Source: Rhodococcoides kroppenstedtii
Lineage (GTDB): Bacteria > Actinomycetota > Actinomycetes > Mycobacteriales > Mycobacteriaceae
Direction: 5' to 3'
NCBI RefSeq assembly: GCF_900111805.1
Contig: NZ_FOJN01000017.1
Coordinates: 1-64,000, forward strand
DNA length: 64,000 nt
Position numbers and translations under genes: made by a program. The notes below the pieces were generated by a model. That model had not been told where the DNA came from and did not search any database. It saw only the letters and a program-made list of their open reading frames with translations. Positions 5,589-51,248 of the stretch are shown here, one piece after another (position 1 is the first letter of the stretch; every line of letters begins with the position of its first letter).

Positions 5589-5607
5589 TTAGGTTAGCCT
5601 CTGCTCG
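5589..5607 (+). promoter_or_regulatory. IdeR/DtxR-type iron box before siderophore importer
   Basis: TTAGGTTAGCCTCTGCTCG. The left arm matches the IdeR consensus (TTAGGTTAGSCT) perfectly; the right arm is degenerate. It lies about 75 bp before the siderophore-binding lipoprotein, as expected for iron repression. Confidence 0.65.
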
Positions 5608-22106: not shown

Positions 22107-23621
22107 ATGAGCGAGACGAACGAGAAGAAGCGCCACCACGTCGTCGTCATCGGTTCCGGCTTCGGTGGCCTCTTCGGCACGCAGGCGCTCAAGCGGGCCG
22201 ACGTCGACGTCACGCTCATCGCCCGCACCACCCACCACCTGTTCCAGCCGTTGCTGTACCAGGTGGCCACCGGCATCCTGTCCGTCGGCGAGATCGCCCC
22301 GGCCACCCGCGTCATCCTGCGCAAGCAGAAGAACGCCGAGGTGCTGATGGGCGACGTCGAGCGGATCGATCTGACGAACAACACCGTCACGTCGCGACTG
22401 CTCGAGCGGGAGACGGTGACCCACTTCGACAGCCTGATCGTGGCCGCCGGAGCGCAGCAGTCGTACTTCGGCAACGATCACTTCGCCGAGTTCGCCCCCG
22501 GCATGAAGACCATCGACGACGCTCTCGAGCTCCGTGGGCGCATTCTCGGCGCGTTCGAGCAGGCCGAGCTGTCCACCGATCCGGCCGAGCGCGAGCGTCT
22601 CATGACTTTCGTCGTGGTCGGCGCCGGCCCCACCGGTGTCGAGCTGGCCGGCCAGATTTCCGAACTCGCGACCCGCACGCTCGACGGCGCATTCCGCAAC
22701 ATCGACGCGCGCGACGCCAAGGTGGTCCTTCTCGACGCGGCCCCCGCAGTGCTGCCGCCGATGGGCAAGAAGCTGGGCGAGAAGGCCGCGAACCGCCTCC
22801 GCAAGCTCGGTGTGGACATCCAGCTGAACGCGATGGTCACCGGAGTGGACAACGACGGCATCACGGTCAAGGACAAGGACGGCAGCGAGCGCCGCATCGA
22901 GGCGCAGTGCAAGGTCTGGTCGGCCGGCGTGCAGGCGAGCCCGCTCGGCAAGCAGCTCGCCGAGCAGTCCGACGGCACGGAGGTCGACCGCGCCGGTCGC
23001 GTCATCGTCGAGCCCGATCTCACGGTCAAGGGCCACCCGAACGTCTTCGTCGTGGGCGACATGATGTCCGTGCCGGACGTCCCGGGCATGGCGCAGGGCG
23101 CCATCCAGGGCGCTCGCTATGCCGCCAAGGCCATCAAGGCCGGCCTCGACGGGCAGGAGCCGAGCCAGCGCAAGCCGTTCTCCTACTTCGACAAGGGCTC
23201 GATGGCCACCGTGTCGCGGTTCAGCGCGGTCTGCAAGGTGGGCAAGCTCGAGTTCGGCGGCTTCATCGCCTGGGTCGCGTGGCTGGGCCTGCACCTCTTC
23301 TACCAGGTGGGATACCGCAACCGGCTCACCACGGTCATCTCGTGGTTCGTGACGTTCCTCGGCCGCGGACGTGCGCAGATGGCGTCGACGGAACAGCAGG
23401 TGTTCGCCCGACTGGCCATCGAACAACTCAATTCACTGGAGAAGGAGAACCGCATCGACGACGCTGCTCTCCCCACGCGCACCATCGACGCGAACTCGGC
23501 GGCGGGACGTCGGGATTCGAAGGCCGACGCCGACGCCGAGGGGCGACGCAAGCAGGTCGACAGCACGGAGAAGCGGGCGGCGTCGGGGGCGTCCCCGACC
23601 AGCGCCGAACGCGCGGGCTGA
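22107..23621 (+). CDS. ndh: Type II NADH dehydrogenase
   Basis: A 504-residue non-proton-pumping NADH:menaquinone oxidoreductase. The FAD motif GSGFGG is at 16-21, and the NADH motif VVVGAGPTGVELAG at about 171-184. Quinone-site sequence AQGAIQGARYAAKAI is present. Residues ~385-418 form the amphipathic membrane anchor (WVAWLGLHLFYQVGYRNR). The extreme C-terminus is a charged tail. An AGGAG ribosome site precedes the ATG. It feeds electrons from NADH into the respiratory chain at the inner face of the membrane. Confidence 0.96.
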   Translation: MSETNEKKRHHVVVIGSGFGGLFGTQALKRADVDVTLIARTTHHLFQPLLYQVATGILSVGEIAPATRVILRKQKNAEVLMGDVERIDLTNNTVTSRLLERETVTHFDSLIVAAGAQQSYFGNDHFAEFAPGMKTIDDALELRGRILGAFEQAELSTDPAERERLMTFVVVGAGPTGVELAGQISELATRTLDGAFRNIDARDAKVVLLDAAPAVLPPMGKKLGEKAANRLRKLGVDIQLNAMVTGVDNDGITVKDKDGSERRIEAQCKVWSAGVQASPLGKQLAEQSDGTEVDRAGRVIVEPDLTVKGHPNVFVVGDMMSVPDVPGMAQGAIQGARYAAKAIKAGLDGQEPSQRKPFSYFDKGSMATVSRFSAVCKVGKLEFGGFIAWVAWLGLHLFYQVGYRNRLTTVISWFVTFLGRGRAQMASTEQQVFARLAIEQLNSLEKENRIDDAALPTRTIDANSAAGRRDSKADADAEGRRKQVDSTEKRAASGASPTSAERAG

Positions 23622-23635
23622 TCGGGGACGGAAGA

Positions 23636-24091
23636 TCAGCGCCCGATGCTGCCCGTGTCGGCGATGTTCTGCAGGCGGACCTGACCGCGGGCGATCGGGC
23701 GGTTCTGCTCGTCCGTGATCGTGACCAGCCAGAGCTGCTGGGTGCGTCCTCGGTGGATCGGGGTCGCCTCACCGGTCAGGACTCCCTCCCGCGCGGCACG
23801 GAGGAAGTCCGTGGAGTTGTTGACACCCACCACGTGGCCGTCCTGGAACCACAGCCCGGCCCCGGTGCTGGCGAGTGACTCCACCACGGCGCAGTGCACG
23901 CCGCCGTGCACGATGCCGAACGGCTGCAGCAACTCGGGGCGCACCTCGTAAGTGGCGGTCACGCGGTCGGGGCCCAGCTCGACGAAGCGCAGGCCGAGGA
24001 GTTTGCCGAAGCCGGTGTCGAGAAGGGTGGCCATGTCCGGGCTCACGTCCGCGTGCGACGGGCGGGGAGCGTCGGGGTCGGTGGAGGTCAT
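23636..24091 (-). CDS. PaaI-family hotdog thioesterase (Rv1847-like)
   Basis: A 151-residue hotdog-fold acyl-CoA thioesterase. The family motif HGGVHCAVVESLAS is at about 65-78, with WFQDGHVVGVNNSTDFLRA downstream. It probably cleaves CoA thioesters of aryl or medium-chain acyl groups. ATG 24091 is used; a TTG four codons upstream (24103) is possible and has a GAGG motif. It converges with ndh. The upstream 130 bp hold a long hairpin and an iron-type palindromic promoter, discussed as a small RNA. Confidence 0.87.
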   Translation of the reverse strand: MTSTDPDAPRPSHADVSPDMATLLDTGFGKLLGLRFVELGPDRVTATYEVRPELLQPFGIVHGGVHCAVVESLASTGAGLWFQDGHVVGVNNSTDFLRAAREGVLTGEATPIHRGRTQQLWLVTITDEQNRPIARGQVRLQNIADTGSIGR

Positions 24092-24126
24092 TGCTTCAGT
24101 CAATCAACCTCGGTGGATCGGATGCA

Positions 24127-24166
24127 CGGTGGGCCTCGCGAACGTCACTGTTCGCGAGGCCCACCG
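24127..24166 (-). terminator. Perfect 17-bp hairpin (terminator, or 3' end of small RNA)
   Basis: Arms 24127-24143 and 24150-24166 are perfectly complementary over 17 bp with a six-base loop. It lies after the FhuF-like gene and before the thioesterase gene, both on the minus strand. No T-run follows. It can end both the FhuF-like message and the proposed small RNA. Confidence 0.75.
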
Positions 24167-24217
24167 GGGCGCGGACCGGGTGTCACTGCAGCCCTCAGGA
24201 CTCCGCTCGATCCGACG
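24127..24217 (-). ncRNA. Candidate iron-regulated small RNA, about 90 nt
   Basis: Minus-strand promoter ATGACT (24247-24252), 17-bp spacer, TATAGT (24224-24229) predicts a start near 24217. The transcript would end at the perfect 17-bp hairpin 24127-24166, giving about 90 nt with no open frame of note. The 17-bp spacer is itself a perfect palindrome resembling an IdeR box. In M. tuberculosis the iron-controlled sRNA MrsI (ncRv11846) lies, as I recall, just before the thioesterase gene Rv1847, the same relative position as here. Not proven; sequence likeness to MrsI was not tested. Confidence 0.5.
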
Positions 24218-24228
24218 TGTCGAACTAT

Positions 24229-24247
24229 ATAGGACAGGCTGTCCTAA
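24229..24247 (-). promoter_or_regulatory. Symmetric IdeR-like operator between -35 and -10
   Basis: Plus-strand ATAGGACAGGCTGTCCTAA agrees with the IdeR consensus at 14 of 19 positions; four of the five differences (positions 6, 7, 13, 14) are symmetric and so keep the palindrome. The core TAGGACAG-G-CTGTCCTA exactly fills the spacer of the candidate small-RNA promoter and overlaps the stop of the FhuF-like gene. Confidence 0.6.
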
Positions 24248-24936
24248 GTCATGCGTGTCGATCCGGCTCGTACCGGAATGCCGATGTCGGTGAACGCGTC
24301 GAGCAGCACCTGACCTCGGCGCCACCCTTCCTCCGCGTCCACGGTGCCCAGATGCGGGATTCGCACGGAGGCGCCCAGTACCGAGTCGCCGACGATGCGT
24401 CCGACGGCGTCCGCGTCGATCGGGCCGAGCGTCGACAGTCCGCGGGTCACCGCGTGCAGAGATCGCGACGCGCGGTGCGCGGTCCAGGCCGCGAGCGACC
24501 GTTCGCACGGCAGGGACACCACGCCGGCGCGCCCCGCGAGTGACCCGCTGTCACGCAGCACGAGGTCCCACACCCCGACCCAGTCGATACCGCAGTCGCT
24601 GTCGAGGTGAATCCAGACGTTCTCCGGACCCGGATCCCAAACCCGTCCGACGCCGACGAACGAGGCCGCGACCCGGCCGACGACACAGTGGACGAGGTCG
24701 GCGGCGACCCCGAGCACGGCCTGCGCCGGATCGCCCCGATCGGCCATCGCTCTCGCCTGCAGGGCCGCGAACCGGCCCGACGACTCCCCCGAGGTCAGCG
24801 CCCACCAGCGGCGCTTGGTCTGGTGACGCATGTTCGCCACGGCGTACACCCGGGGAGCTGCGGGGTCGAGGTCACGCAGCCACGTCATGGCCCGATCGAA
24901 CTCGCCCGCCACTCCGACCTCGTCGACGACGGTCAT
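24244..24936 (-). CDS. FhuF-like siderophore-iron protein without the usual cysteine tail
   Basis: A 230-residue protein that resembles the FhuF ferric-siderophore reductase family in its middle part: ADLVHCVVGRVAASFVGVG, WDPGPENVWIHLDSDCG and VVSLPCERSLAAWTAHRAS. Classical FhuF ends in a CCxxC-type cluster that binds 2Fe-2S; this protein ends GIPVRAGSTRMT with no such cluster. It may act in iron release by another route or as a structural partner. An IdeR box lies just before the ATG (24936), and the siderophore importer is divergent on the other side, so a role in iron use is well supported. Confidence 0.7.
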   Translation of the reverse strand: MTVVDEVGVAGEFDRAMTWLRDLDPAAPRVYAVANMRHQTKRRWWALTSGESSGRFAALQARAMADRGDPAQAVLGVAADLVHCVVGRVAASFVGVGRVWDPGPENVWIHLDSDCGIDWVGVWDLVLRDSGSLAGRAGVVSLPCERSLAAWTAHRASRSLHAVTRGLSTLGPIDADAVGRIVGDSVLGASVRIPHLGTVDAEEGWRRGQVLLDAFTDIGIPVRAGSTRMT

Positions 24937-24956
24937 CGCACACCTCCGTTTCGAAT

Positions 24957-24975
24957 TGAGGTAAGCCTAACCTGA
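24957..24975 (-). promoter_or_regulatory. IdeR/DtxR iron box before FhuF-like gene
   Basis: Plus-strand TGAGGTAAGCCTAACCTGA, close to the IdeR consensus on both arms, 21 bp before the FhuF-like start. Confidence 0.78.
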
Positions 24976-25044
24976 TGAGATCCCGTACTTCGGCGTGGGA
25001 CCCGTCACAGACCCGAGGCGACCATCGCAGGGGCTCCGCAGGAC

Positions 25045-25063
25045 TATGGTTAGGCTTGCGTAA
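25045..25063 (+). promoter_or_regulatory. IdeR/DtxR iron box before RDD-FecCD permease operon
   Basis: TATGGTTAGGCTTGCGTAA agrees with the IdeR consensus at 14 of 19 positions. It lies 26 bp before the importer operon start at 25089. Confidence 0.68.
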
Positions 25064-25088
25064 CCCCGATCGACGACCAGGAGGCCCC

Positions 25089-26537
25089 GTGTCCGAGCGC
25101 ACCGCTCGCGTCTCGACGCTGCCCTCCGACCGCGACTACGCATCCCTCGATCGCCGGCCGCCGGGCGCGACGCCCCGACTGGTCGCGCTCGCCGTCGACG
25201 TGGCCCTGCCCGCTCTCCCCCTGGTCATCGGTGCCGTCGTCGTCCGCTCGCTGACCGACGCCAACGGCGGCGGCGAGATCGACCGCGCCGTGTTCGCGTC
25301 CCTCGCCGTGCTCGCCGCCGTCGGAATCGCGTACTGGAACCGCGGCATCCGGGACGGACGGGCCGGTCAGAGCGTCGGCAAGACCATGGCCGGACTCGTC
25401 CTGCGCGACCGAGACCACCGCGGTGCCATCGGCACTCGCGCCGCCTTCCGCCGCGACGGTCGCACGGCGGAGGTGGTCCGCACGGAGATCGCCGTCGCCG
25501 ACGGTTTCACCGCGATTCCACCCGACACGACCTCCGCCGCGACGCGGCGACGACGCACCGGCGGACTGCTCGTCCTCGCGATCGCACTGGTGCTGGTGGT
25601 CGCCATGTCCATTGCCGTCGGTGCCCGGCCGCTGACCTTCGCCGAGATCGCGCACGCCTTGCTGAACTCGACCGGAACCGACACCGACGTGATCGTGCGG
25701 TCGCTCCGCCTGCCGCGCACCGCCCTCGGACTGCTGGTCGGCATCGCCCTCGGCGTCGCGGGAGCACTGATCCAGGGCCACACCCGGAACCCGCTTGCCG
25801 ACGCCGGGCTCCTCGGGCTCAACGCGGGGGCGGCGTTCTTCGTCGTGATGGCCATCTATCTCTTCGGCATCACCTCGCCCGGCGGGTACCTCTGGTTCGC
25901 CTTCGCCGGCGCCGCGATCGCCAGCGTGGTCGTGTTCGGCAGCGCGTCCATCGGTGGTGGCCGGGCCAACCCCCTCTCCCTGGCGCTCGCCGGGGCCGCC
26001 GTGGCGTTCTTCCTCCAGGCCCTCACCAACGCGGTCGTCCTGCTCGATCAGGCCACGCTCGACAGCTACCGCTTCTGGATCGTCGGCTCCGTCTCCGGCC
26101 GGGGCATCGACATCTTCTGGACGGTGCTTCCCTTCGTCCTCGCCGGCCTCGTCGTCGCCGCAGCCGGCTCGCCGGCGCTCAACACCATCGGCCTCGGTGA
26201 CGACGTCGCCCGCTCGCTCGGCACCAACATCGCGCTGACCCGCACCGCGGGCATCGTCGCGATCACCCTGCTCACCGGCGCCGCCACCGCGGCCTGCGGT
26301 CCCATCGCCTTCGTCGGCCTGGTGGTCCCGCATATCGCGCGGTCGATCGTCGGACCGGACTACCGCTGGATCGTGCCCTTCTCCGGCGCGTTGGGCGGAC
26401 TGCTGCTCCTCGTCGCCGACGTCGTCGGACGCGTGGTCGTGCGTCCGGGCGAACTGCAGGTCGGCATCGTCCTCGCTCTGATCGGAGGGCCGTTCTTCAT
26501 CGCCCTCGTCCGGCGTCGGAAGCTGGTGGCGCTGTGA
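25089..26537 (+). CDS. Siderophore ABC permease (FecCD) with N-terminal RDD domain
   Basis: A 482-residue fusion. Residues ~28-115 form an RDD-type two-helix membrane domain: RLVALAVDVALPALPLVIG, a second helix, then GQSVGKTMAGLVLRDRD, the usual TxGK-like RDD end. Residues ~155-482 are a complete FecCD permease (RLPRTALGLLVGIALGVAGA, NPLADAGLLGLNAGAAF, FVGLVVPHIARSIVGPDY). The GTG at 25089 follows AGGAGG. It imports ferric siderophores with the next two gene products; the RDD part has no assigned role. GTGA overlap with the second permease. Confidence 0.92.
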   Translation: MSERTARVSTLPSDRDYASLDRRPPGATPRLVALAVDVALPALPLVIGAVVVRSLTDANGGGEIDRAVFASLAVLAAVGIAYWNRGIRDGRAGQSVGKTMAGLVLRDRDHRGAIGTRAAFRRDGRTAEVVRTEIAVADGFTAIPPDTTSAATRRRRTGGLLVLAIALVLVVAMSIAVGARPLTFAEIAHALLNSTGTDTDVIVRSLRLPRTALGLLVGIALGVAGALIQGHTRNPLADAGLLGLNAGAAFFVVMAIYLFGITSPGGYLWFAFAGAAIASVVVFGSASIGGGRANPLSLALAGAAVAFFLQALTNAVVLLDQATLDSYRFWIVGSVSGRGIDIFWTVLPFVLAGLVVAAAGSPALNTIGLGDDVARSLGTNIALTRTAGIVAITLLTGAATAACGPIAFVGLVVPHIARSIVGPDYRWIVPFSGALGGLLLLVADVVGRVVVRPGELQVGIVLALIGGPFFIALVRRRKLVAL

Positions 26538-50995: not shown

Positions 50996-51213
50996 CCCTC
51001 CCCCTCTGTCGTGTGCCCGTGACCACGGGCGCCTGAGAGATTCGGCGCGGGTGCGCCTTTCCCCGTGGGCGGGTGGGCTGTTCCACCGCTTTCCAGAGGC
51101 GTCGGAGCCCGCACGGTCCGGGGGCCTGAGAGATTGACGGAGAGGTGCTGCTCCTTCGGCGCTCGACCCGTGCCGCGACCGGCTACGGTCGGACCGTGGT
51201 CGAAGCTCTCCCG
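50996..51213 (-). promoter_or_regulatory. Tandem glycine riboswitch before gcvP
   Basis: Read on the minus strand from 51213: GGGAGAG, CGCCGAAGGAGCA, CTCTCAGG, CTCTGGAAAG (first aptamer), then CCCACGGGGAAAGGC, CGCCGAA, a second CTCTCAGG and GACAGAGGGGGAG (second aptamer). These are the conserved cores of the two-aptamer glycine riboswitch. A -10-like TATACT is at 51235-51240. It should switch gcvP on when glycine is high. gcvH, at 54 kb, has no such element here. Confidence 0.93.
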
Positions 51214-51248
51214 TGCGGCGTCGACGCACCGCCGAGTATAGGCCGCGC

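Follow-up and report, generated by a model that had tools for sequence, protein, structure and literature searches.

The stretch of Rhodococcoides kroppenstedtii DNA analyzed here (contig NZ_FOJN01000017.1; 64,000 nucleotides (nt), hereafter the window) carries on its minus strand a FhuF-like gene (24244–24936), followed downstream by a hotdog thioesterase gene (23636–24103; open reading frame (ORF) as listed, with a TTG start). The minus-strand segment at 24127–24252, which lies largely between the two genes, very probably encodes an ortholog of MrsI, a small RNA known from Mycobacterium tuberculosis, and is predicted to be repressed by IdeR, expressed at low iron, and iron-sparing. We assign the RNA to MrsI because the structural and positional features that could be tested agree.

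Results

The −35 hexamer ATGACT (24247–24252), read directly from the sequence, doubles as the final two codons of the FhuF-like gene, and the −10 hexamer TATAGT (24224–24229) puts the probable transcription start near 24217. The promoter spacer is occupied by the IdeR-type operator TTAGGACAGCCTGTCCTAT (24229–24247), whose palindromic core is TAGGACAGCCTGTCCTA (24230–24246), and the stop codon of the FhuF-like gene falls within this box. This promoter was the sole sigma-70-like site in the region 23600–25100, compared with a mean of 0.1 in shuffled sequences. The predicted MrsI-type RNA of approximately 91 nt (24127–24217) coincides with a covariance model match. Its 5′ stem-loop domain (24170–24217), defined by covariation and folding, consists of an outer stem (GGAUCG/CGGUCC), an inner stem, and an apical stem; it contains the conserved core CCTGAGGGCTGCAG (24186–24199) and, as the proposed seed, the 7-nt apical loop AGGGCUG (24189–24195). 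Approximately 50 nt of RNA with the conserved core lie between the −10 hexamer and the putative terminator hairpin (24127–24166), in which the arms 24127–24143 and 24150–24166 pair perfectly over 17 base pairs (bp) around a 6-nt loop. Perfect stems of at least 17 bp were absent from ten 64-kb sequences simulated with a matching dinucleotide composition, and the hairpin is therefore far beyond chance. The folding energy of the predicted RNA was −57.2 kcal/mol (z −5.5). This reading agrees exactly with the original prediction, which had described an ATGACT-17-TATAGT promoter with a palindromic 17-bp spacer and an RNA of about 90 nt ending at a perfect 17-bp hairpin.

The thioesterase regions of relatives were gathered by protein similarity (a thioesterase match was found in 101 of 101 genomes, and 30 loci were compared), and a shared block was seen in most of them. 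Among 401 family genomes, 226 contained the exact core CCTGAGGGCTGCAG and about 43 its reversed control; the core was present in all 37 genomes of the window's genus (the figures 43 and 37 are our own counts). Alignment A1 consisted of 39 sequences chosen among carriers of the exact 14-mer, and its core columns are invariant because of this selection. In the structure model, drawn from A1, paired cells amounted to 93.7% compared with 83.7% after shuffling, and changes on both sides were observed in 19 of the 29 modeled pairs and in 14 of the 14 terminator pairs. RNAalifold alone found the apical stem and the terminator but not the outer stem; folding of the single window sequence recovered all three. 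The loop AGGGCUG was present both in the window fold and in the consensus. Ten family loci were also retrieved, and the eight among them that lack the exact 14-mer carried CCCGAGGGCTGCGG, CCAGAGGGCTGCTG, ACTGAGGGCTGCAG, or TCTGAGGGCTGCAG. In the apical-stem variants CCCGAGGGCTGCGG, CCAGAGGGCTGCTG, and A or T followed by CTGAGGGCTGCAG, the paired stem positions changed while GAGGGCTGC remained intact. Stems that vary around a fixed loop suggest that the loop pairs with other RNAs.

Covariance model R1, trained on a set that includes the window sequence and its near relatives, matched the window at 24116–24224 with 88.4 bits (E 2.1e-16), a match to a member of its own training set. At E ≤ 0.001, 233 of the 301 family genomes searched matched R1; these belong to 24 of the 31 genera. 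Four of these matches (E 2e-4 to 5e-4), the sole ones in three genera, were no stronger than out-of-family matches, and we therefore regard 229 genomes in 21 genera as the safer count. Among 150 genomes of the order, 20 matched R1, 18 belonging to the window's family and two to other families with E near 1e-3; the two out-of-family alignments lacked the loop, and a spread outside the family was rejected. We also inspected named loci, namely the best 80 of 537 thioesterase loci, and found the RNA in 62 of them, nearly all titled Mycobacterium, with the exact core in 59 and a stem variant in three.

The synteny set contained 152 distinct RNA loci and is a biased sample, many of them having been fetched through the thioesterase. 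The thioesterase lay downstream on the same strand in all 152, within 700 nt in 151 and at 1146 nt in one, which fits the earlier placing of the RNA, flanked by a FhuF-like and a thioesterase gene, at the position of MrsI. Among solved structures, that of Rv1847 of M. tuberculosis (3s4k) is the closest to the window thioesterase by sequence. At the M. szulgai locus L069, where gene order was checked, a divergent blaI gene is followed by the RNA and then by the thioesterase; the divergent gene matches PDB 2g9w, which is BlaI of M. tuberculosis. Such constancy of strand and proximity would also suit a terminated leader of the thioesterase mRNA, with the hairpin as an attenuator and read-through into the thioesterase gene as the product of interest, and the lack of a U-run after the window hairpin points in the same direction. 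However, the gap between the core and the protein match ranges from 37 to 556 nt, with 1146 nt at one locus; conservation is highest in the loop, which suits base-pairing in trans; and reviews present MrsI as a separate transcript about 100 nt in length. We consider a thioesterase leader improbable.

The feature that sets the operator apart is its IdeR frame. The window contained 12 palindromes with arms of at least 8 nt compared with 4–12 in simulations; the palindrome was rejected as evidence on its own, its frequency being at chance level. Allowing up to three mismatches, TTAGGACAGNCTGTCCTAA found this site alone in the 4.08-Mb genome, and the TTAGGNNAGNCTNNCCTAA frame found five sites in the window, where 0.08 were expected; the single-mismatch level of this frame was reached genome-wide at this locus only. 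We then scored the 110 nt preceding the core against the IdeR consensus and kept the best 19-mer (threshold 12/18). All 151 loci examined had an IdeR-like box there, compared with 1 of 151 shuffled sequences and 3 of 142 distant stretches; one of the 152 loci was dropped because its upstream DNA was too short. Across the 151 boxes, positions 6, 7, 13, and 14 vary widely and the frame TTAGG--AG-CT--CCTA is largely retained. The boxes of the nearest relatives are TTAGGGCAGCCTGTCCTAT and TTAGGGAAGCCTGTCCTAT, and that of named mycobacteria is TTAGGGCAGCCTTGCCTAT. Going by these sequences, the box tolerates variation, and the perfect palindrome is one of its forms. The arrangement of [AG]TGACT, a 17-nt spacer, and a −10 hexamer around the box was seen in the window and in six relatives picked for showing it; in other relatives the −35 is of the TTGC or TTGACA type and sits a few bases out of that register.

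The four further window sites with the IdeR frame (up to three mismatches) are at 5589, 14867, 24957, and 25045. The neighboring ORFs encode, among others, periplasmic binding proteins (PF01497) at the first pair of sites and FecCD permeases at the second pair, and for this reason we regard the window as an iron-uptake neighborhood. The FhuF-like gene has its own IdeR-like box at 24957–24975. The FecCD permease encoded at 25086–26537 on the plus strand carries a fused N-terminal RDD domain.

The original prediction had noted that the spacer palindrome keeps the outer frame of an IdeR box with a symmetric core change, and had taken the changed core as a possible sign of a different DtxR-family regulator; the former is upheld by the orthologous boxes, and the latter is not. 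The window box departs at positions 6–7 and 13–14 from the IdeR consensus, and the genome encodes two DtxR-family proteins. The first matches the PDB structure of IdeR (1fx7) over its full length (E 1.2e-109), and its gene adjoins a galE-like gene; the second, SirR/MntR-like, is encoded between ribF-like and truB-like genes (both neighborhoods judged by eye). The second protein might serve the operator, and the RNA would then answer manganese rather than iron. However, the departing positions are those that vary freely among the orthologs, including the named mycobacteria, and a different regulator is therefore unsupported. IdeR itself is conserved, the four other frame sites in the window stand near iron-uptake-type genes, and reviews report an IdeR site for MrsI of mycobacteria. 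Control by manganese is thus very unlikely. An ordinary terminator of the FhuF-like gene beside a chance palindrome, with no separate RNA, is hardly credible: the hairpin does lie downstream of that gene and palindromes of such size occur at chance frequency, but conservation is highest in the loop and stem core that separates the box from the hairpin, and this part co-varies. The search for an upstream FhuF-like gene, made with one query that possibly missed diverged copies, succeeded in only 65 of the 152 loci, yet the remaining loci keep the RNA.

Regarding the upstream gene, the FhuF-like assignment stood only at the family level, since PF06276 matched 10 of 19 orthologs at E up to 1 (best 1.7e-5), but the window protein itself gave no FhuF (PF06276) match. 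The model of the window protein (pLDDT 89.5) showed weak fold likeness to siderophore-synthetase domains and to E. coli FhuF, none at E ≤ 0.001, and the protein lacks the C-terminal cysteines of FhuF.

Discussion

Judged by sequence, the small RNA gene in the window is real and conserved, is preceded by an IdeR-type operator, and is MrsI by homology. According to published accounts, MrsI of M. tuberculosis is located between blaI and Rv1847 (H37Rv coordinates 2096766–2096867, PMC8628891). It measures about 100 nt, has a 7-nt apical loop, a 6–8-nt seed, and an IdeR site close to its start, and is induced at low iron, with bfrA, hypF, and fprA as targets (PMC8628891, PMC11188477, PMC7029489). 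Like MrsI (ncRv11846) of M. tuberculosis and M. smegmatis, the window RNA precedes an Rv1847-type thioesterase gene and has an IdeR-type box at its start; measured against these descriptions, it also agrees in length (about 90–100 nt), in its 7-nt apical loop, and in its terminator hairpin, and named Mycobacterium relatives carry the same RNA in the same place. The conservation of sequence, structure, box, and position across the family, including the co-varying hairpin, supports the original prediction of an MrsI-like RNA under an IdeR-type box. In contrast to MrsI, the window RNA has a FhuF-like gene rather than blaI upstream, and its box lies exactly between the −35 and −10 hexamers, with the −35 inside the upstream gene; the missing U-run and the lack of a recognized bfrA or ferritin gene also set it apart. 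RyhB, PrrF, FsrA, and IsrR are likewise made once an iron repressor releases and silence iron-using proteins, as described previously (PMC9410917). Iron sparing is likewise the probable role of the window RNA. Unlike these RNAs, it matches no Rfam family at the gathering score; membership in Rfam was rejected, the matches at the locus being below threshold.

Several observations weigh against this assignment. M. tuberculosis is absent from the 80 named loci, so that the identity with MrsI is argued through other Mycobacterium species and published descriptions, and IdeR control of MrsI is itself termed “predicted” or “potential” in the texts consulted. The TTAGGNNAGNCTNNCCTAA frame with up to two mismatches occurred at four places in the whole genome, as did its reversed control. 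The sequence 3′ of the window hairpin is TGCATCC, without a U-run. Eighteen of the 80 named loci lacked the RNA by both core and model; all 11 named Mycolicibacter thioesterase loci (L103, L107, L116, L119, L123, L124, L126, L129, L140, L145, and L146) lacked it by core and R1 within the loci searched, suggesting that the RNA was lost or moved in Mycolicibacter. As for targets, neither a bacterioferritin (bfrA) nor a ferritin gene was recognized by a PF00210 search of the window genome and the two genomes closest to it. Sites with the seed complement CAGCCCT ahead of a ribosome site and start codon numbered 30 in the window genome compared with 79 for the reversed sequence, showing no enrichment. 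Among four bfrA leaders of 300 nt from other genomes, L193 alone had a clear complement, CAGCCCTC, approximately 40 nt before the start; two of the others lacked the 6–7-mers searched for and one had only GCAGCC at −112. A simple loop-to-bfrA pairing rule was tried and, with a clear complement in one of four leaders, was not confirmed. These missing target predictions mean little, since prediction tools reportedly also failed on confirmed MrsI targets (PMC12395582).

The PF00210 search gave 47 matches in 15 genomes, of which 30 were fetched, including all six from the window genome and the two genomes closest to it. Each of these three genomes had two matches. One was Dps; the other, borderline at 24.3, 22.9, and 22 bits against a cut-off of 24.5, resembled none of the BfrA, ferritin, and Dps queries. 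Ferritin was present in all seven other genomes of the genus searched, and BfrA was recognized, among the 30 matches fetched, in four genomes, all outside the window's genus. The RNA thus persists where its best-known target, bfrA, is not found, and because neither a bacterioferritin nor a ferritin gene was recognized in the genome, its targets here must be others. Eleven seed-complement places were inspected in the window genome, and three stand before ORFs; we regard these as leads only. One (G000:C21:350042) precedes an ATG-started long ORF, judged thiolase-like by eye, and does so in each of the three near species, and the others precede GTG-started ORFs of 518 and 280 amino acids in the window genome. 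At the thiolase-like gene, the loop-complementary CAGCCCTGA lies just 5′ of the ribosome site in the three near species, on the reverse strand near 1043 in L254, 1054 in L255, and 1091 in L256, and is doubled in tandem in one of them. Within the genus, the ferritin leaders L182, L185, and L186 share a conserved TGACAATGCCCTCTGACCAGC with GCCCTC near −28, which could pair with GAGGGC of the loop; GCCCTC was not found in the ferritin leaders L183, L184, L188, and L191, the rest of the seven examined.

An MrsI-type RNA at this locus may work as follows. When iron is sufficient, iron-loaded IdeR would occupy the box between the −35 and −10 hexamers and block RNA polymerase. When iron falls, the repressor would depart, and transcription would yield the RNA of about 91 nt, with the 17-bp hairpin at its end. 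The 5′ domain of the RNA would display the 7-nt loop AGGGCUG for pairing with mRNAs, which presumably encode dispensable iron-using proteins whose expression would be lowered, sparing iron. The promoter, the box, the conserved structure and loop, the synteny, and the IdeR protein encoded in the genome support this scheme in silico; IdeR binding, the iron response, termination, pairing, and repression at the locus are what we infer from it.

The reviews consulted treat MrsI as a mycobacterial RNA. We found no report of MrsI outside mycobacteria in the open-access literature searched, which did not cover the original 2018 paper and hence gives no proof. Our opinion is evenly balanced on a broader reading, in which MrsI would be an ancient, family-wide iron-sparing RNA whose loop stayed fixed while its targets were rewritten, and which in the window's 4-Mb subclade outlived bacterioferritin and ferritin and now acts on other mRNAs. 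Across the 21 to 24 genera of the family that have the RNA, the loop is fixed and the stems co-vary, which marks out the likely functional core, and model R1 can be used for annotating MrsI-type RNA genes. This distribution also offers harmless hosts for studying this type of RNA, and the clade without a recognized bacterioferritin or ferritin is a natural test of the purpose for which it is retained.

Elsewhere in the window, a glycine riboswitch was found at 51104–51223 on the minus strand (52.6 bits; Rfam gathering score 32), the only above-threshold Rfam match in the window.
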